From Lentisphaerota bacterium (GTDB lineage: Bacteria; Verrucomicrobiota; Lentisphaeria; Victivallales; Victivallaceae): a DNA stretch of 64,000 nucleotides. The notes beneath the pieces are model-generated. The model did no database searches, was not told the DNA's origin, and saw nothing but the letters and a program-made list of their open reading frames with translations. The stretch spans positions 2,600,001 through 2,664,000 of the forward strand of contig CP071032.1 in the NCBI GenBank assembly GCA_017134815.1. Direction: 5' to 3'. Every line of letters begins with the position of its first letter. The first letter of the stretch is position 1. Positions 7,754 to 60,058 of the stretch are shown one piece after another. A program made the translations under genes and the position numbers.

Positions 7754-10006
7754 ATGTCTGATTTTAAAAGAATCCCTGTGCGAATCGACGCTGCCAGCGG
7801 CAAGCAGATCGATGAAGGCGGCAAGCCGGTCAGAGAAGCAGGTCAAATACGGCTGCTTTTTGACGAAACGGTGATACTTTGCTGTGAATTTTTTGATGTA
7901 AAATGGAATGACGGAACGGTCGCGGTTACTCCCCATTTATTGAAACCATCGTTGACAATCAAAGCTTTCGGAGATAATGACTTCAATCCTGAGACCACAT
8001 TCATGTTCCTGACAGAACAGAATAATACTGCTCCGGATTACGGTGGAATTAATAAGCCTGGAGACTGGTTTAACGACAGCACAGCTGACCTGACTCAAGG
8101 GCAGTTGAGTGTGCGTGTCAACACCAACACTGCAAGGTTTTCCGAAGCTGTTAAGACCAGCGGGGCCTGCCGTAAGTTTTACTTTTGCATTACAGGAATT
8201 CCGTCAGGCCAGACGGCAAATACAGTTTTGGCATATTTTCAGTTTAAAGCAGAGAACCGTCCCAGTTCAAGCAGCGGAGCGCCGGTTCCGGCTGATCCGG
8301 ATTATCTGGATGCGCAGGCTGTCAGAGCACTGGTAAAAACAGCCCCGGAATTTCAATTCAGCATTGATGGTTCAACCAGCTGGCACGGGGAACAGTCAAC
8401 CCACGACTGTTACTATCGGGAAAGACGCAACGGCGGCGAGTGGTCGGCGGCAATCCGGCTGATTGAAGGAAAACCCGGGCTTAACGGTGTGGGTATAAAT
8501 TACCTGGCAACTTATAATGGCGATACTGAATACGCGAAAAATGATGCGGTAACTTTTCAGGGCAGTTTGTTTGTTTCGTTGACCGATAACAATTCGGGCA
8601 ATACCCCTGACGCCAGTAGTGCTAATTGGCAGCTGTCCATAGCCAAAGGCAATAAAGGTGACCAAGGGGAGCAGGGACCGAAAGGTGATCAGGGCAATAA
8701 AGGAGAGCAGGGCGACCAGGGCGTCATAGGTGATCAGGGTGATACTGGTAAATCAGCCTTTCAATCCTGGCTGGATGCCGGCAACGCTGGTACCGAAGCT
8801 GATTTTCTCACTGCCTTAAAAGGAGCAAAAGGCGATACCGGAGAGAAAGGTGATGAGGGTAATAAAGGAGAGCAGGGCGATCAGGGCATCAAAGGAGATA
8901 AGGGTGACACCGGTAACCCCGGCAAATCGGCTTATCAGGTCTGGCTGGATGCTGGCAATACTGGCACCGAGGCCGCTTTTCTCGCAGCCTTGAAAGGAGC
9001 AGAAGGAGATAAAGGCAGCAAGGGCGATGCCGGAGAGAAAGGCGATCAGGGCGATATCGGAGAAAAAGGAGATAAGGGTGACACCGGTAACCCCGGCAAA
9101 TCGGCTTATCAGGTCTGGCTGGATGCCGGCAACGCCGGTACCGAGGCCGCTTTTCTCGCAGCCTTGGAAGGAGCAAAAGGCGATACTGGAGAGAAAGGAG
9201 AAAAGGGAGATTCCGGGATGAGCAATCCCAGCCTGTTGACGAACGGCGATTTTCATGTCTGGCAGCGCGGCGAGATGTTCAATGCGGCGGCAGCCGGACA
9301 GTTTACCGCTGACCGCTGGCGGGTTGACAAGCATTCCACTGTCACGGTCAATGTCAGCAGAGCCGGCGACGCATTGAAGTTTGAAAAAGCCAATAGCGTT
9401 AACAGTTTCTGTAATATCCAGCAGCCGGTTGATCTGGAGGTGAATCCGATCAGTAACGGTGAAACTTTTGCGGTTTCTTATGAGGCACGCAGAATTTCCG
9501 GTACCGTCAACATCAATCCGCTGTTTTCCCAAACTGCCGATGGAACAACGACTTTCGTAACCGGTGCCGCTCCGGCCCTGACGGCAAGTTTTCAGCGGTT
9601 TTCTGTGACAATGACCACCAGCTTCAGCGGTTCACTTACCGCGTTTGCGCTTTTGTTTGCGGTAACAACTGACACTTCCGGTGTTGTTGAGATCAGAAAC
9701 GTCAAGCTGGAACGCGGCAACACCGCAACACCTTTTGAGCAATCAGATTACACCAGTGAACTTGTCAGGTGTCGCAGATACTTCAGAAGACAGACACTGC
9801 GCTGGCGGCAGCACCAAAGCGGCGAAGGGTATTCAGTTGTATTTGATCCGCCAATGCGGGCTACTCCGACACTTGCTCAAGTCAGCGGCCCGGCGATCCC
9901 GGCAAACGGTGAGCTAAGTGTGGGACCTGACAGTTTTCACTTCGGTGAATCCGGATCCGATACCGCAATAAAAGTAAGTGTATATGACTTTACAGCAGAA
10001 TTATAG
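7754..10006 (+). CDS. Collagen-like phage tail fibre / receptor-binding protein
   Basis: The 750-aa protein has a modular tail-fibre build. Residues 1 to about 210 form a beta-rich N-terminal domain probably used for attachment. Around residues 250-296 lies a segment resembling a small chitin-binding (CBM5/12-like) module (ATYNGDTEYAKNDAV to W). Residues 297 to about 492 are Gly-X-Y collagen-like triplets, rich in GDKGDxG and GEKG. They are interrupted by three copies of KSA(F/Y)QxWLDAGNxGTEA at residues 333, 391 and 449, exactly 58 residues apart. The C-terminal part (LLTNGDFHVWQRG onward) matches the carbohydrate-binding jelly-roll heads common in phage fibres. Such triple-helical shafts trimerise and display a glycan-binding tip. 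The ribosome site AAGAGGAA lies upstream. Confidence 0.88.
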   Translation: MSDFKRIPVRIDAASGKQIDEGGKPVREAGQIRLLFDETVILCCEFFDVKWNDGTVAVTPHLLKPSLTIKAFGDNDFNPETTFMFLTEQNNTAPDYGGINKPGDWFNDSTADLTQGQLSVRVNTNTARFSEAVKTSGACRKFYFCITGIPSGQTANTVLAYFQFKAENRPSSSSGAPVPADPDYLDAQAVRALVKTAPEFQFSIDGSTSWHGEQSTHDCYYRERRNGGEWSAAIRLIEGKPGLNGVGINYLATYNGDTEYAKNDAVTFQGSLFVSLTDNNSGNTPDASSANWQLSIAKGNKGDQGEQGPKGDQGNKGEQGDQGVIGDQGDTGKSAFQSWLDAGNAGTEADFLTALKGAKGDTGEKGDEGNKGEQGDQGIKGDKGDTGNPGKSAYQVWLDAGNTGTEAAFLAALKGAEGDKGSKGDAGEKGDQGDIGEKGDKGDTGNPGKSAYQVWLDAGNAGTEAAFLAALEGAKGDTGEKGEKGDSGMSNPSLLTNGDFHVWQRGEMFNAAAAGQFTADRWRVDKHSTVTVNVSRAGDALKFEKANSVNSFCNIQQPVDLEVNPISNGETFAVSYEARRISGTVNINPLFSQTADGTTTFVTGAAPALTASFQRFSVTMTTSFSGSLTAFALLFAVTTDTSGVVEIRNVKLERGNTATPFEQSDYTSELVRCRRYFRRQTLRWRQHQSGEGYSVVFDPPMRATPTLAQVSGPAIPANGELSVGPDSFHFGESGSDTAIKVSVYDFTAEL
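8891..8952 (+). repeat. Direct repeat copy 1 inside the collagen-like region
   Basis: This 62-base stretch is identical to 9065-9126, 174 bases downstream (58 codons). It encodes the end of a Gly-X-Y run and the KSAYQVWLDA block. Identity at synonymous positions points to a recent duplication within the shaft. Confidence 0.9.
9065..9126 (+). repeat. Direct repeat copy 2 inside the collagen-like region
   Basis: This is the second perfect copy of the 62-base repeat at 8891-8952. A more diverged third unit lies one period (174 bases) upstream, around 8717-8778, so shaft length probably varies by unequal recombination. Confidence 0.88.
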
Positions 10007-48547: not shown

Positions 48548-48828
48548 CTATAAAACTCCTGTTTGAATTTGAGCAGTGAATAAAATTATCTGTCTGTTAA
48601 TTACAAACGGCTTTCAGCACTGCACTTATGTTAATAGTTTTTTACAATCATGTCTCAACTGACAGCAGGACTTTATAATCCTGATACTGCCAAAAATAAA
48701 AATCTAGCCGATAAAATTGTAAAATCAAATAAATTAACTCAAATTCAGCGTTAAAACTGCTTTGTATTTTCTGAAACAGCAGTAATTTAAGGAGGAGATT
48801 GATAATAATAATCACAGGAGATTATTCC

Positions 48829-51800
48829 ATGAGAAGAGCCGGATTGAGATGGTGCAGTCGCTATCTGTTTGTAATAACTGCCGCAATGTTTATTTTTGCC
48901 GGCAGTCTTGCTGCCAAAGAAGTTAAACCACTGCTTGACCGCAAGCTTGTGCTGTCGGAAGCAGCACAAGTTGACCTCAAAAAATACCCCGACGCTGACA
49001 CCGTTCTGATTTCAGATTATGAGAAGGTTAAATACAATCCGGACGGGACATACACTTCCGTGGATGAGTTTTATGAAAAGATCCTGACTGAGAAGGGCAG
49101 ACGTGAATCTCGAGTCGCCAATCTGTATTTTGATTTACCGTACACCAAGGTTATTCCATATAAAATAGGCATCATCAAGCCGGACGGCAGGTATATAGCT
49201 ATTGATATCAAGGCAAATTCAAAGGAAATGGTCAACCCTTCTCAGATGAGTGCCAATATTTACGATCCAAACAGCAAAATACTTAAAATAACCATACCTG
49301 ATCTGGAAATCGGTGACGTATTGTATAAGTATGTCCGACGCGATGGTGTAGTACCGCGAATCAAAGATGTATGGTGTGACTTTTACTTGCTTGAATATAC
49401 TTCGCCGATTTTGAAGTATGTCATTGAAATAAACGGTCCGAAGTCCCGTCCTCTGAAAAAGTTTATGATTAAAGATCCGGTGAAAGGCACAGTTAAATTC
49501 TCTCAGAAAGCTGCCGGTGACAGGATTATTTACAAATGGACAGCCGCCAATGTCCCGCAGTCATTTCCTGAGCCTCAAATGCCGCCATTTTATATGTATT
49601 CACAACGTTTACTGGTGAGCACTGCCGCTGACTGGCAGGAAATTTCCAGATGGTACTGGTACTTGTGCAAACCCCATCTGGAAAAAACCAACCAGGCAAT
49701 GCGCGAGAAAGTCAAAGAGTTGACTGCCGGCTTGAAGACCGATATGGAGAAGATCAAGGCAATTTACCGGTTTGTGTCCACCAAAATTCGCTACATGGGC
49801 ATTATCGATGAAAAAACCGCTCCCGGATATGAACCACACGACGTTGATATAACTTTCAATAATCGGTATGGAGTCTGCCGGGATAAGGCTGCTCTGCTGG
49901 TTGCTATGCTGCAAATGGCTGGTTTCAAAGCATATCCAGTGCTTTTTTATGTGGGGCCGAAAAAAGATGCAGAAGTGCCTAATAATATGTTTAATCACGC
50001 TATCAGCTGTGTAATCCTTAAAGATGGCAAACACATGCTGATGGATCCGACTGATGAAAGTACTTATGATGTTTTACCGTCATACCTGTCTGATAAAAGC
50101 TACCTGCTGGCAAAGCCGGAAGGGGACACACTGTTTACCTCTCCTGTGACTCCGGTGTCAGAAAACCTGGTCAAAATCAAGACAACCGGAGAAATTTCCC
50201 GTGACGGAAAGCTCAAGGCAGAAAGCAGAATGCTGTTTGACGGGATAAACGATACTACCTTCCGCGGAGCTTTTTCACAATGGCGCCCGGAGCAGATAAA
50301 ACAGTATTTTACTTTTGTGTTGAAGCAGTCTCTGCCCGACGCCAGGGTAACTTCATTTGAGGTGCTGCCAAAAAATCTTAGAGACTTCAAAAAACCGCTT
50401 AAAGTCAATATTGCATTTGAATCCTCAAGTATACTGGTCAAGGGAAGAAATATAATTCTTGTACAGCTTCCCTGGTTTTCCGGAAAAATAGGGGCCGTCT
50501 CTTTTGCCTTGAGCGGGTTGGGCCTTGAAAAGCGAAAATATCCGCTTAAAATATTCTCAACCTGCGGTACTGTAGGAGAGTTTTCATTTAAACTTCCACT
50601 GGGGATGCAGGTCGTTAAACTGCCTGAATATAAAAAGGTTGACTGGGATAAATTCTCCTGGAAGCGTAAGCTGAGCTTTAAGAATCACACTTTGGCCGGC
50701 CGGAGCTCTTTTCTGATTAACACGATGGAGTTTTTGCCGAAAGATTATCTGCGGCTAAAGTCAGATCTGAAAGTAATTGAAACTGAAGCCAAAAAACTGC
50801 CGTTGCTGCAGAAAAAATGTGCCAGCACTGATTTAAAATACCTCAAAAAGCTTTATCCGGGCTCCAAATCCGTTATTCTCGCTAAAAATGTTGATATAGA
50901 CTTCAAAGACGCCAGCACTTACTCAATGCGCACTGTGATCAAACGCAAGGTGCTGAACTATGGTGGTGTTAAAAGCTTTTCTGAGCTGAAGTTTTTCTAC
51001 AATTCGGCCTGGCAGCAGGTTAAGATAAATTATGCCAAAGTAAAAGATCCTGACGGCAGCGTAAAAAATATCAGCAAGAAAGAAACCAACCTGATGGATC
51101 AAAGCTGGACAGGCAGCGCGCCGCGTTACCCTGGCGGTAAGATTCTGGTCCTGAATCTGCCTGGCGTCAAAGTCGGCAGTGAAATAGAGTACGATGTCGT
51201 CATTGAAAACAGCAGTGTGCCGCTGGCCGGTATTATGTGCCTGTTCAAAGAATACGATCCAATACTGAGTAAAAAGATAAGCATTACCGCTCCTGAAAAA
51301 CTGGCGCTGAAGTTTTCGAAAACTCCTGATGTGGTTGAAAGCAGTGTTAATCGTGCAAAAGGTCTGGTTTCGCACGTTTTCAAAGTCAGTAATGTTTCAC
51401 CAATAGCGGCAGAATCTTCCACTCCTCCTGTCTGGGCGTTTACACCTGTTATTTATGTCAGTGCCGGCAACTGGAAAGAATTTTCAAAATCGGTCCTGAC
51501 GGCTTTAACAGGGGCTGCTGACAAACAGGAAAAAACCAAAGAGCAGGCGGTTAAGCTGGCGATGATGCGAAAACCGCTTGAGGCTATGCGCAGCATCAGG
51601 GATTTTATTGCGATTCAGGTCCGCGATGCCGGTCCCGGGTTCAGCTCCATGCCTTTGAGCACAATAACTCCTGCTGATAAAACGCTGAAAGACGGTTACG
51701 GCAATTCTACTGACCGTGCGGTTTTGACTTACGCCATGTTGCAAGCTGTCGGTTTTAAGCCGGAGTTTGTTATGGTTGCAGATATTTTTCCGATTCCCCG

Positions 51801-52635
51801 CGCAATGCAGGCGCTGAAGGCCTTCCCAAGAGGACAATTTGACGATATTCTGGTCAAGGTCAGGTATCAGGGCAAGGATTATTATTTTAACGATACCAGC
51901 CAATACGCCATGACAGGCGCTACTGACAGCGAGAGCATGATTGTTTACAGTCCGGCAAAGGATAAGCTTGAGTATCTTTATGCGCAGCCTGAGTTGAACA
52001 GTCTTTACAAAGAGGATTACAATATTCAGATCAGTAGAGACGGCTCTGCTGAAATTACTAAAACAAAGGCTTTCTACGGAGAATCATTTGAAAACGCAAA
52101 CCGGTTGTACAGTGAATTTACTCCTGAAGAAAGACGTCGCCATTTTCAGGAGCTGGTTTCGGGTGTAGCTCAGGCTGCAACGGCCGCCGGCAAACTTGTG
52201 ACAAACTTTGAGAAGTATCCGGGAGTTGAAGAGTTCAGAGTTAAAATCCCGGCGTTTGCGGTTGTTGATAATGGCTATATGTACTTCAAGCTGCCTGGTC
52301 TGATGATCAGCGAAATTTTCAAAACTGCGTCAAATGAGCGCAGTAACCCGGTTATGCTGGGCAGTTATAATAATTATGAACAGCATTACAGAATTAAACT
52401 GCCTGCGGAAATGACTGAATTTGATATCCGGCCTGTTTCAAGAGTCTTGAAGGTAGGCCCTTGTGTGGTGAGAATAAAGGTCTCAAAATCTGCAGACAAT
52501 GAACTTCTGATGAAGTGTTCAGTCAAATTGCGCCCGGGAATAATTTCAGCCGCTGAGTTCGGTATTCTTGAAGATGCTCAGTCGGTTTTGAGTAATCCGG
52601 CAATGGGAACAGTTATGATCAAACTTAAGAAGTAG
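48829..52635 (+). CDS. DUF3857/transglutaminase-like secreted protein with two halves
   Basis: The ATG at 48829 gives a signal peptide ending near SLAAKE (about residue 31) and 1268 residues; a TTG at 48799 is possible but poorly spaced. Each half has a DUF3857 beta domain followed by a transglutaminase-like domain. The first half keeps the cysteine (YGVCRDKAALL, Cys350), the His of NMFNHAISC and the Asp of MLMDPTDE. In the second half the matching sites read YGNSTDRAVL and FDDILV, so Cys and His are gone; it is probably a binding or structural copy. Proteins of this type are periplasmic and poorly understood; protein crosslinking or proteolysis is possible. Confidence 0.88.
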   Translation: MRRAGLRWCSRYLFVITAAMFIFAGSLAAKEVKPLLDRKLVLSEAAQVDLKKYPDADTVLISDYEKVKYNPDGTYTSVDEFYEKILTEKGRRESRVANLYFDLPYTKVIPYKIGIIKPDGRYIAIDIKANSKEMVNPSQMSANIYDPNSKILKITIPDLEIGDVLYKYVRRDGVVPRIKDVWCDFYLLEYTSPILKYVIEINGPKSRPLKKFMIKDPVKGTVKFSQKAAGDRIIYKWTAANVPQSFPEPQMPPFYMYSQRLLVSTAADWQEISRWYWYLCKPHLEKTNQAMREKVKELTAGLKTDMEKIKAIYRFVSTKIRYMGIIDEKTAPGYEPHDVDITFNNRYGVCRDKAALLVAMLQMAGFKAYPVLFYVGPKKDAEVPNNMFNHAISCVILKDGKHMLMDPTDESTYDVLPSYLSDKSYLLAKPEGDTLFTSPVTPVSENLVKIKTTGEISRDGKLKAESRMLFDGINDTTFRGAFSQWRPEQIKQYFTFVLKQSLPDARVTSFEVLPKNLRDFKKPLKVNIAFESSSILVKGRNIILVQLPWFSGKIGAVSFALSGLGLEKRKYPLKIFSTCGTVGEFSFKLPLGMQVVKLPEYKKVDWDKFSWKRKLSFKNHTLAGRSSFLINTMEFLPKDYLRLKSDLKVIETEAKKLPLLQKKCASTDLKYLKKLYPGSKSVILAKNVDIDFKDASTYSMRTVIKRKVLNYGGVKSFSELKFFYNSAWQQVKINYAKVKDPDGSVKNISKKETNLMDQSWTGSAPRYPGGKILVLNLPGVKVGSEIEYDVVIENSSVPLAGIMCLFKEYDPILSKKISITAPEKLALKFSKTPDVVESSVNRAKGLVSHVFKVSNVSPIAAESSTPPVWAFTPVIYVSAGNWKEFSKSVLTALTGAADKQEKTKEQAVKLAMMRKPLEAMRSIRDFIAIQVRDAGPGFSSMPLSTITPADKTLKDGYGNSTDRAVLTYAMLQAVGFKPEFVMVADIFPIPRAMQALKAFPRGQFDDILVKVRYQGKDYYFNDTSQYAMTGATDSESMIVYSPAKDKLEYLYAQPELNSLYKEDYNIQISRDGSAEITKTKAFYGESFENANRLYSEFTPEERRRHFQELVSGVAQAATAAGKLVTNFEKYPGVEEFRVKIPAFAVVDNGYMYFKLPGLMISEIFKTASNERSNPVMLGSYNNYEQHYRIKLPAEMTEFDIRPVSRVLKVGPCVVRIKVSKSADNELLMKCSVKLRPGIISAAEFGILEDAQSVLSNPAMGTVMIKLKK

Positions 52636-56971: not shown

Positions 56972-58417
56972 TCAATATTTTAAAAAAACAGATCTTATTG
57001 GATAAAATCCCATCACATAATTCAATGATAACAGCTCTAAAGTTGGATTATTTTTGAGTTCAAAAAAGCGCGGTACACCAAACAGAGTTCCAATTGCTGT
57101 GACTCTTACACTATTGGTGTTTATTTCATCAAGTTTTTCTTTTATGAGTTTTTGAATGCGCTTTGTTTCTTCAGCTATTACAGTTGTCCCACTCTCACTT
57201 CTTGAAAGTAAAAGCTTTTCATTCATAATTAAAATCAAAGGAATTCTTGAGCCTTTTCTTCTAAATTGCGTGAAATAACTACAGGCCTTTTGGGCAACCT
57301 CTTTTCTATACAGATTGGTGCGTTGCAGGTTCGGAATAATTTTTTTTGCAATGGCAGTTAAAATACTGGAGTCATTCAGTATCTCATCTAGAGAAGGTAC
57401 TGGAATAGCCAGTTCTTCACACATTATTTTCAGCACATCATAATAATATTCAGGAGCCAGATGAAAATATTCTGGAACCATGAATCTTCCAGAGGAAACT
57501 AAAGTTTCAAAATTGAAGCAAAAAGCGTTTTTACACCGGCACTCAATAAAAGTCAATAAATTGAACAGATCTGCATTCCTTTTTTGTATTGATGTACAAC
57601 TTTTTGAGCTGCAGGTTGAAAGTCCATATTTAGTAATCATATCTGGTATGTCATGTGGACAAAGGTCATTTGCAGTTTCATTTATGATATCTCTTTGCAG
57701 ATGACTTTTCATTAAATCCGGACTAATTAACTCAAAAGGATCTTTCTCATTGAATCCCTCAATTCCAACAATTGCTTTCTTATTGCTGAATACCTTAAAA
57801 TAGTACAGTAAAAACCTGGTTGCCAAACGATATTGCGCATCTTGTTTTGAGAAAAATATAACGATATCAGAATTATCTAAAATACGATCAAACTGGAGTG
57901 TCAGTTTAATATTTATTGGAGTAGCAGCTCTTCGATGAAATTGATTAGAAATAAATATACAGCCTGTACAGCAATCACATAATTTGGCAACTTTTCTGTT
58001 CAAAGCAGAAAAAATGCGAAAACCATATCTAGTAAATACTAAGCCGCTGGCAAAGTCAGCAATACCACTGCAATAACATGAAAGCTTTTCGCCAATTGAT
58101 TTTTCCAATAATCCATTGTAGAAAAGTTCATCTTCAACATTTTTCCCTGATTTACAGGGAACCAGATATGACTCATAGAGTTGCTCGTCTGTTAAATGAT
58201 CTAAGCTGTTGAGCTTTTTACGAACATTTTTTATGTGATTAATCAGCTCTTCATAAAATAGCTTTCTAAGCTTGATATCCTCAATATCCAGTCGCGTAAA
58301 TCCCATCTCATGACCGTTGAATTCTCTATTGCATTCTTGACACCTGAAAGCCAATGTGTTAGAGCTCAGCAGTAAAATTAAAGCAAAAAAGAAAAACCGT
58401 AAAAATAATAATCTCAA
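56972..58417 (-). CDS. Secreted cysteine-rich protein, paralogue 1 of an unknown family
   Basis: The 481-aa protein has a signal peptide (MRLLFLRFFFFALILLLSSNTLA) followed immediately by a CxxC zinc-ribbon-like motif (FRCQECNREF). Further cysteine pairs occur around residues 113-155. A central segment, FDRILDNSDIVIFF, then a helix and NKKAIVGIEGF, resembles the strand-helix-strand order of a GTPase-like fold, but P-loop and DxxG motifs are absent. The end (NSVRVTAIGTLFG, then NPTLELLSLNYVMGF) is shared with the gene at 58580. I recognise no named family. Codon use is AT-rich compared with core genes. Confidence 0.7.
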   Translation of the reverse strand: MRLLFLRFFFFALILLLSSNTLAFRCQECNREFNGHEMGFTRLDIEDIKLRKLFYEELINHIKNVRKKLNSLDHLTDEQLYESYLVPCKSGKNVEDELFYNGLLEKSIGEKLSCYCSGIADFASGLVFTRYGFRIFSALNRKVAKLCDCCTGCIFISNQFHRRAATPINIKLTLQFDRILDNSDIVIFFSKQDAQYRLATRFLLYYFKVFSNKKAIVGIEGFNEKDPFELISPDLMKSHLQRDIINETANDLCPHDIPDMITKYGLSTCSSKSCTSIQKRNADLFNLLTFIECRCKNAFCFNFETLVSSGRFMVPEYFHLAPEYYYDVLKIMCEELAIPVPSLDEILNDSSILTAIAKKIIPNLQRTNLYRKEVAQKACSYFTQFRRKGSRIPLILIMNEKLLLSRSESGTTVIAEETKRIQKLIKEKLDEINTNSVRVTAIGTLFGVPRFFELKNNPTLELLSLNYVMGFYPIRSVFLKY

Positions 58418-58579
58418 AACTCGCCTCTCTCTTTTTATAAAATATTTTCATTGATTTGATCTTAAGAAATTCTAAAATAGAAATTTGAAATGTCGGTGTA
58501 AATACTTCTTGTTGGTAAATCAGTTAATTTGTCACACTTTAGGTATTGCGCGAGTGATCTTTTTTTGAATCTGCGGTGC

Positions 58580-60058
58580 TCAAAGAGTATGGCAGGGAAA
58601 AAATAGATAATCAATGCAAAGTTCTTCCAGAACCGGGTTATATAATTTTGAATACAGCATTGATTTATCGGTTAAAGATTTTTTTATTGCTACTGTGGTT
58701 ACTCTGACACTATTGAGTTCTAAGCCTAAGAGGTTTGCTTGTAAAATGTTCTGTATCAAATTAGAGCTTTTCAGGCCATCAGATTTCAAGCCATGACAGG
58801 AGTCTAATACTATTAAAAAAGGAATTCTGTCACTTTTCATTCTACTTCGGTTTACAGCGGCAAAGTAACTGGCTATTTTTTTTGCGACTTCTTGTCGATA
58901 GGTTAGACTGTGTTTATATCGAGAGCTGAACTTTTTACCAAATATGATTTTGCGTTGCAACAAACCAAGATCTAAAAAATTCTGACCTTTCATGTTTAGC
59001 TCTTTAAAAGCAGCGTTTAGCGTTGAAAGATATTTTTTGACAGTCTCACGGTAGTTTTTGTCACCTAAAGACCCTAAGTATGCCAATGGCGATTCCATTG
59101 CAAAACCTACAGCGTTAAGACACCATTTCCCAACCATGCAGCTTAAAGCTATATCAGAAAGCATCACACTTTCCAGTTCCCTGGTCAGATAAATATCAAG
59201 GTTAAATAATGGAAGGTTATATTCAACAACAACACGAGCCAGTTTTTTATCAACTGAGTTACAGGCATCCCATTCAATAAATTGATCATCTATCACTTTT
59301 TCTACACGTCTGAGTTCTGCCTGGGTCATATCAGGTGTATCATAAGTTCTCAGACCAACAACCAGCTTTTTGTTTCTAAACAGTTGCAGGTATGTGATGA
59401 CGGTATCGTGAATAGACTCATGAGAATCTTTTAAAATAATGACAATGTCTGACCTGTCGATTATTTGGTCAATTTTCATCGCTAACTGGAAATTCGCAGG
59501 GGCTAGATGCTTTGGCAGCCCGAGGCATTTATAACAGACATATTCACAATGATTTTTGTGACTGCCAAAATCAGTAAACTGAAACCCGCAGTGCAGGCTT
59601 AAGCCTGATGGGAAAAGCTTGAGCCCTGAGGAGGTTTCATTGAGGATGTCTGGCCGCATTTTTTTTGAATAAAGTCTGGTGCCTATTGAATATTGAAGTG
59701 GCTTTGAAGTCACAGCTCTTTCGACTTCCTCTTGAAGTTGATCATTGGTTTGAAGAACTTGGCTGAAATTAAGTTTTGCTACGAGTGGATTATTGTAATA
59801 TTCAAAAAACTCTCTAGTGGTCAATACTTTTCCTGTATTGCTGCTTTTCTTAAAAAGTTTTTTATGATTATTGTTTGCATATTCATAAATATGTTGCTGG
59901 TATGATTCTCTGAAACTTTCCTCAAAAGGATCTATTGTTTTGCATTCCCCCAATTCAAATGTCTGACCACATTTAGAACATTGCACTCTGGCATTTAAAA
60001 AGAAGCATGACACAAAAAGCATCAGGAATGTCGCAATTTTAGTAAATAAACACTTCAT
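58580..60058 (-). CDS. Secreted cysteine-rich protein, paralogue 2 of an unknown family
   Basis: The 492-aa protein is homologous in layout to the gene at 56972. It has a signal peptide, a CSKCGQTFELGEC ribbon right after cleavage, a second cysteine cluster (CEYVCYKCLG) and IDQIIDRSDIVIILKDS followed by NKKLVVGLRTYD. A helical middle and RVTTVAIKKS near the end, then NPVLEELCIDYLFF, complete the match. Side by side the two share perhaps a quarter of residues by eye. They are in tandem and separated by 160 bases, so they arose by an old duplication. Function is unknown. Confidence 0.7.
   Translation of the reverse strand: MKCLFTKIATFLMLFVSCFFLNARVQCSKCGQTFELGECKTIDPFEESFRESYQQHIYEYANNNHKKLFKKSSNTGKVLTTREFFEYYNNPLVAKLNFSQVLQTNDQLQEEVERAVTSKPLQYSIGTRLYSKKMRPDILNETSSGLKLFPSGLSLHCGFQFTDFGSHKNHCEYVCYKCLGLPKHLAPANFQLAMKIDQIIDRSDIVIILKDSHESIHDTVITYLQLFRNKKLVVGLRTYDTPDMTQAELRRVEKVIDDQFIEWDACNSVDKKLARVVVEYNLPLFNLDIYLTRELESVMLSDIALSCMVGKWCLNAVGFAMESPLAYLGSLGDKNYRETVKKYLSTLNAAFKELNMKGQNFLDLGLLQRKIIFGKKFSSRYKHSLTYRQEVAKKIASYFAAVNRSRMKSDRIPFLIVLDSCHGLKSDGLKSSNLIQNILQANLLGLELNSVRVTTVAIKKSLTDKSMLYSKLYNPVLEELCIDYLFFPCHTL

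Follow-up and report, generated by a model that had tools for sequence, protein, structure and literature searches.

A genus-restricted family of exported two-CxxC proteins with a predicted TIKI/EreA-ChaN-like domain in a Lentisphaerota bacterium

Introduction

The fold of EreC is also found in BcR135, BcR136, ChaN, HopBA1 and PMT, and ChaN binds haem (PMC7979712). RRSP has been classed as a TIKI protein, and metal-independent 2His/2Glu chemistry is documented for the TIKI fold (PMC6254334). In EreC, H50 and E78 lie 28 residues apart (PMC7979712), as do H85 and E113 of BcR135 and H3902 and E3930 of RRSP (PMC6254334). PMT does not carry the 2His/2Glu set and is reported to be non-catalytic (PMC6254334).

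We analysed a window of 64,000 nucleotides, positions 2600001–2664000 of the single 3,198,720-base contig that makes up the 3.2 Mb genome of a Lentisphaerota bacterium. A preliminary description of this DNA had singled out two tandem genes for secreted, cysteine-rich proteins of no known family, and had taken each product for an exported protein that combines a zinc ribbon with a degenerate nucleotide-binding, GTPase-like domain. Here we report that both genes belong to a multigene family that our searches detected only within the genus, and we argue that the second domain is likely to have a TIKI/EreA-ChaN fold in worn-down form. If so, this would be the first expansion of this kind on the fold that is known to us.

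Results

Two divergent tandem genes in the window

Copies 1 and 2 (Table 1) are real open reading frames, arranged head to tail with a gap of 162 bp. Their alignment spans the whole length of both products (24% identity, E 8e-19), which confirms them as tandem paralogues. As the preliminary description had it, both have a hydrophobic N-terminus followed at once by a CxxC pair (residue 26 or 27), a second cysteine cluster with a CxxC pair at residue 175 or 147, the stretches D-x-SDIVI and NKK(A/L)(I/V)VG, and a similar C-terminal end. Among the matches listed, the nearest paralogue of copy 1 is L021:8616-10049 (53% identical) and that of copy 2 is L031:2381-3826 (~49% identical).

The AT-richness ascribed to this stretch is borne out by a GC content of 0.34–0.38 around the two genes, against mostly 0.40–0.53 in the rest of the window. 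The long noncoding regions said to surround the pair proved roughly right: the 840 bp upstream are free of long ORFs, and small ORFs are present below 56.6 kb. No convincing direct repeats and no convincing island boundary were found near the two copies. No Pfam family reaches its cut-off in either copy or in any other family member, in keeping with the claim of no known family, and a sequence search of solved structures with the 30-row family profile found no match.

Elsewhere in the window, positions 7754–10006 hold a 750-aa ORF with collagen-like G-x-y repeats (GDKGDQG...), like those of phage tail-fibre or surface proteins, and positions 48799–52635 encode a secreted protein of 1278 aa that combines a transglutaminase-like core with two DUF3857 stretches.

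Table 1. Features of the two family genes, in positions of the 64,000-nucleotide window.
Feature	Position	Strand	Remarks
Copy 1	58580..60058	-	492 aa; exported CxxC + TIKI/ChaN-like-fold protein (fold predicted)
Copy 1 signal-peptide-like N-terminus, residues 1-24	59987..60058	-	from hydropathy alone; cleavage site is a guess
Copy 1 first CxxC (C27, C30)	59969..59980	-	invariant in 30/30 members
Copy 1 second CxxC (C175, C178)	59525..59536	-	invariant in 30/30 members; proposed zinc-site partner of the first CxxC
Copy 1 core strand 1, SDIVIIL	59429..59449	-	from the AlphaFold model; H-x-H of early-branching copies missing at the strand end
Copy 1 late strand, IPFLIVLDSCHG	58790..58825	-	corresponds to the early-branching G-x-x-H; retains the His but not the Gly
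Copy 2	56972..58417	-	481 aa; TTG start
Copy 2 signal-peptide-like N-terminus, residues 1-23	58349..58417	-	from hydropathy alone
Copy 2 first CxxC	58331..58342	-	residue 26; from alignment and N-terminus scan
Copy 2 second CxxC	57968..57979	-	residue 147; from alignment

A multigene family confined to the genus

A survey of the genome for further copies, which had been suggested, uncovered a scattered multigene family with at least 27 full-length members. Profile searches gave, among the matches listed, at least 26 full-length copies and a 157-aa fragment, and in addition a divergent 27th copy (485 aa, ~1,438.6–1,440.0 kb). Some copies are clustered, for example five at 181–197 kb and four at 654–664 kb, and others stand singly; together the full-length family genes make up ~1.3% of the genome. 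Median pairwise identity among them is 32%. In the 14 closest pairs dN/dS is 0.17–0.59, and we therefore conclude that close copies are under purifying selection and are maintained genes. The new envelope or effector system that had been proposed is possible, although its unit would be a dispersed multigene family and not a pair of genes.

Three divergent relatives were found, among the matches listed, in G001, a Lentisphaerae MAG and the one further genome found for this genus. Profile searches of 78 genomes of the family, 137 of the order and 388 of the phylum detected no other credible full-length relative among the matches listed; one match in G087, to a different protein, is limited to its N-terminal CxxC part. 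Degenerate-pattern scans of genome contigs returned no relatives when made with a copy from this genome and only its own contig when made with a G001 copy, and a scan of viral contigs gave no match for the copy tried. Within the genomes searched, the family is thus restricted to the genus. The 27 full-length copies and the three G001 relatives were aligned as a set of 30 sequences. One well-supported clade of the tree (support 100/98) comprises 23 copies from this genome, both window genes included.

Cysteine pairs and export signal

Five residues, C27, C30, C175, C178 and P187 in copy 1 numbering, are invariant across the 30 aligned sequences. A stretch of ~120–150 residues that includes a helical insert separates the two CxxC pairs, and the model of copy 1 (see below) has a strand-knuckle-strand element at the first pair, a helical stretch, and then a strand followed by a helix at the second. 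The presence of the two pairs in 30/30 sequences and the modelled secondary structure would be compatible with a zinc ribbon or treble clef, in which two CxxC pairs each sit in a knuckle, one of them at a helix start. The strand-knuckle and knuckle-helix pattern suggests that the two pairs may come together as one zinc site.

Basic-hydrophobic N-termini that resemble signal peptides are present in all 27 copies from this genome, with a maximum 12-residue hydropathy of 2.3–3.6, a measure of composition. None of the three G001 relatives has such an N-terminus (maximum hydropathy 0.4–0.7), and their in-frame upstream sequence contains no missed signal peptide. The FYVE-bearing relative described below also starts without one. 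Since the export signal goes with the expanding lineage, comparison of the two genomes suggests that export may have been gained there. Of the exported zinc ribbon in the preliminary description, sequence thus supports an export-type N-terminus and an N-terminal CxxC element that is zinc-finger-like.

A relative with a FYVE zinc finger

A more distant relative (the FYVE-TIKI protein, 462 aa) is encoded in the same genome at L138:1318-2706 (-), G000:C1 ~861–863 kb. Against the family alignment it scores E 2e-5 across 267 columns, and it matches Pfam FYVE (PF01363) with 46.9 bits against a cut-off of 27.8; its best match to FYVE chains in the PDB has E 3e-6. Fused to the finger is a TIKI/ChaN-like domain with LLGHVH...VVAIEGS...VPVGRKH, in which the motif is largely kept. 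FYVE domains that bind PI3P carry the signature WxxD, R(R/K)HHCR and RVC. The corresponding stretches here are WIKN, GIHHCR and IVC; because the signature is only partly kept, we do not claim PI3P binding for this protein. Searches of plasmids and phages gave no match to it, and its gene adjoins a fructokinase-like gene of the bacterial chromosome.

At ~190 kb, in the 181–197 kb cluster, L021:11768-12901 (-) encodes a 377-aa protein with no signal peptide and the motifs GQKHT...AMENS...GRMH. It matches the FYVE-TIKI protein with E 9e-7 and is probably, from these sequence features, another TIKI-type protein.

Predicted fold of the C-terminal domain

An AlphaFold (AF2) model of copy 1, built from a 26-row alignment, had a pTM of 0.83 and a mean pLDDT of 79.8. 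After the second CxxC pair it shows a domain of alternating strands and helices that runs to the C-terminus. When this model was compared with the PDB by Foldseek, ranks 1–4 were taken by EreC, HopBA1, EreC and BcR135, with PMT at rank 9. A second model, of another copy, returned BcR135 at rank 1 (E 0.019), HopBA1 at rank 2 and RRSP at ranks 9 and 13. Individually these matches are weak, with E of 0.02–0.13 and none below 0.001, query-normalised TM-scores of 0.21–0.26 and large rmsd. Nevertheless, the same small superfamily stands at the top for two models, an agreement that is unlikely to have arisen by chance. Neither model placed a GTPase at the top, so that the structure prediction proposed as a check of the GTPase-like fold came out against it; a viral fold library gave nothing usable.

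Before the fold results were obtained, we had noted that the G001 relatives, with LFHDH...FMELF...CNLNMARNV...VVIIGAGHHG, recall the motif order of TIKI, ChaN and EreA proteins. We then compared profiles, using a set drawn from the phylum of 21 proteins of Ere type and 13 of ChaN type. A profile of the early-branching family members aligned with PF04187 (ChaN) over 184 columns with all motifs in register, at a score of 25.0. This score was reached by 1/200 block-shuffled nulls, and the best of 42 unrelated window proteins scored 23.7, barely below it. Adding the FYVE-TIKI sequence to the early-branching set raised the score to 35.8 (E 6e-4, 0/101 nulls), and the top-scoring stretch then ran from strand 1 to strand 2. 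The full 30-member profile gave no match above the nulls to ChaN or Ere, and the Ere profiles (PF05139) were unmatched by every query set. In direct Pfam searches, this genome has no match to PF05139 (Erythro_esteras), and no family member exceeds the curated cut-off of PF04187; the similarity to ChaN is one between profiles and belongs to the early-branching set alone.

On the combined evidence of the fold searches, the motif order, the His-to-Glu spacing (see below) and the ChaN profile match, we think it quite likely that the C-terminal domain has a worn-down TIKI/EreA-ChaN-like fold and not that of a GTPase.

Active-site motifs

The motifs H-x-H, E and G-x-x-H occur together in six early-branching members, three from this genome and the three of G001. 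These relatives retain three of the four 2His/2Glu positions and carry a His where GExH has its first Glu, and therefore even the early-branching copies may not be Ere-like hydrolases. Their spacing from the second His of H-x-H to the Glu, counted in the two copies L030:8610 and L071:3646, is 27 residues, compared with 28 in 19/19 Ere proteins of the phylum set.

In the expansion clade H-x-H is absent from all 23 copies and the other positions are partly kept. In copy 1 the H-x-H site is without His, the Glu is replaced by Arg and the late His is retained; copy 2 retains the Glu and has lost both His positions. Neither copy thus carries the 2His/2Glu set (GE-x(1,2)-H, a Glu after strand 2 and a late His). 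PMT provides a precedent for a member of the fold that lacks this set, and we do not claim catalytic membership for the window proteins. From these residues, the expansion copies, including both window genes, are likely to be non-catalytic.

Leaders and neighbouring genes

A 65-nt leader lies upstream of 12 family genes (for example at 660173–660237 (-) of this genome) and of nothing else in the genome. It forms a short hairpin (GATTGTT/AACAATC) with a G-rich loop directly before the ribosome-binding site, and in the leader of L021:8616 one stem pair is altered on both sides. The hairpin is clear in about 10 leaders, and RNAalifold found no common RNA structure over 14 of them. We considered a regulatory RNA and rejected it, given the lack of a common structure and the limitation of the leader to 12 family genes; inheritance together with the gene explains its sharing.

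Other families recur beside the copies. One is a second secreted paralogous family of ~260–580 aa, with eight ORFs in the loci read (L021, L022, L025, L031 and L032, all in this genome), one of them with a Metallophos domain. A family of small secreted proteins, matched by tRNA_anti-like (PF12869), lies near family copies at L024:1263-1757, L027:16353-16871, L033:2040-2555 and L072:6430-6948, and another recurrent family is found at L024:2153, L026:423 and L072:7268.

Discussion

On balance we favour the view that these proteins are a genus-restricted exported family, composed of a zinc finger and a mostly non-catalytic TIKI-fold domain, which grew by duplication and probably acts by binding outside the cytoplasm. 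The ancestor would probably have been an unexported zinc-finger–TIKI enzyme, like the FYVE-TIKI gene of this genome and the relatives in the sister species. It would then have gained a signal peptide and multiplied, and most copies, both window genes included, would have lost the 2His/2Glu-type active site while being kept by purifying selection. Because the active site appears lost yet selection persists, the most likely activity would be the binding of a protein, glycan or small ligand outside the cytoplasm, rather than hydrolysis, and the diversifying repertoire would face a host or competitors. What the sequences show directly is the copy number, the restriction to the genus within the searches made, purifying selection, the loss of motifs and, by composition, export-type N-termini. 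The fold is supported by prediction, whereas zinc binding, the loss of catalysis, the target, the place of action and a binding or effector role are inferred.

Action directed at a host is suggested by the pattern of expansion, the FYVE link and the use of the fold by HopBA1, RRSP and PMT; we regard it as possible, at rather less than an even chance. We are more doubtful still of the fuller scenario, in which a zinc-finger–TIKI enzyme akin to the FYVE-bearing one gave rise to ~27 diversified exported pseudoenzymes that form an effector or receptor family aimed at a host or at neighbours. Were the proteins to act on a host, they would represent an expanded exported repertoire of a new type within the poorly known Lentisphaerae lineage. 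The analysis provides a named fold hypothesis for a multigene family that occupies ~1.3% of a genome and has no Pfam match. The family would also offer a natural series from a zinc-finger–TIKI protein that retains most of its active-site motif to exported copies without the motif, and so a model for how enzyme folds become binding proteins.

The copies might instead be active exported hydrolases that have rebuilt an active site on a TIKI-like fold, each with a different substrate (peptide, ester or glycan). In favour of this are purifying selection, the Glu or Asp that many copies still have at the second-strand position, the late His retained in some of them, and the 2His/2Glu chemistry documented for the fold, which needs no metal (PMC6254334). 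We nevertheless judge this unlikely, as the H-x-H that ends strand 1 is missing throughout the expansion clade, copy 1 has Arg for Glu and copy 2 has no late His. A similarly low probability attaches to the proposal that the proteins are ChaN-like carriers, located in the periplasm or at the surface, whose ligand is haem, a different tetrapyrrole or a metal. No profile other than that of the ChaN family (PF04187) gives a significant match, and ChaN itself binds haem (PMC7979712), but the expansion clade gave no evidence of conserved haem ligands, 27 copies would be a large number for a carrier, and the neighbouring genes are unlike an uptake operon.

The original reading, in which an exported zinc ribbon is followed by a degenerate nucleotide-binding domain of GTPase type, is now highly improbable. 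The second domain is indeed alpha/beta, D-x-SDIVI and NKK(A/L)(I/V)VG superficially resemble GTPase core strands, and a few P-loop ATPases appear among the weak fold matches of the second model. However, a Walker A or G1 P-loop motif is present in none of the 30 family sequences, NKxD-like tetrapeptides occur in just 3/30, at no conserved position, so that NKK does not represent a conserved NKxD, and TIKI/EreA/ChaN-superfamily structures head both fold searches. The missing P-loop and the lack of any GTPase leading these searches argue strongly against the P-loop GTPase fold. Equally hard to sustain is a selfish or mobile family, spread by an element and with no cellular role: the copies are scattered and clustered, one is truncated and 12 share a leader found nowhere else in the genome, but dN/dS stays below 1 even at high divergence, descent with the gene explains the leader, and there are neither convincing repeats at the window copies nor, for the copy tried, a match among viral contigs.

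The family can be set beside several known systems. With ChaN (Cofac_haem_bdg, PF04187) it shares a strand 1 that ends in a His motif, a helix, a strand 2 that ends in Glu, a later (R/C)N..(M/I)A helix followed by a G-x-x-H strand, and the significant profile match of the early-branching set plus the FYVE-TIKI relative; it differs in that GExH is H-x-H or lost, in its lack of a Pfam match, and in its additional zinc-finger-like element and helical insert. The erythromycin esterases and BcR135/BcR136 (PF05139) give the best Foldseek matches for both models and a His-Glu spacing within one residue, whereas no sequence-profile match links them to the family and the expansion copies have lost the catalytic residues. 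The C-terminal domains of HopBA1, RRSP and PMT, TIKI-fold effectors or toxins of other bacteria, match at the level of the fold, and PMT, like the window proteins, is without the 2His/2Glu set (PMC6254334); they differ from the family, which has a plain N-terminal export signal and shows no sequence similarity to them. One relative carries a FYVE zinc finger (PF01363) above the Pfam cut-off, whereas the window proteins have no FYVE match and two CxxC pairs alone. On the fuller scenario, the logic of its ~27-copy repertoire would resemble that of expanded effector families.
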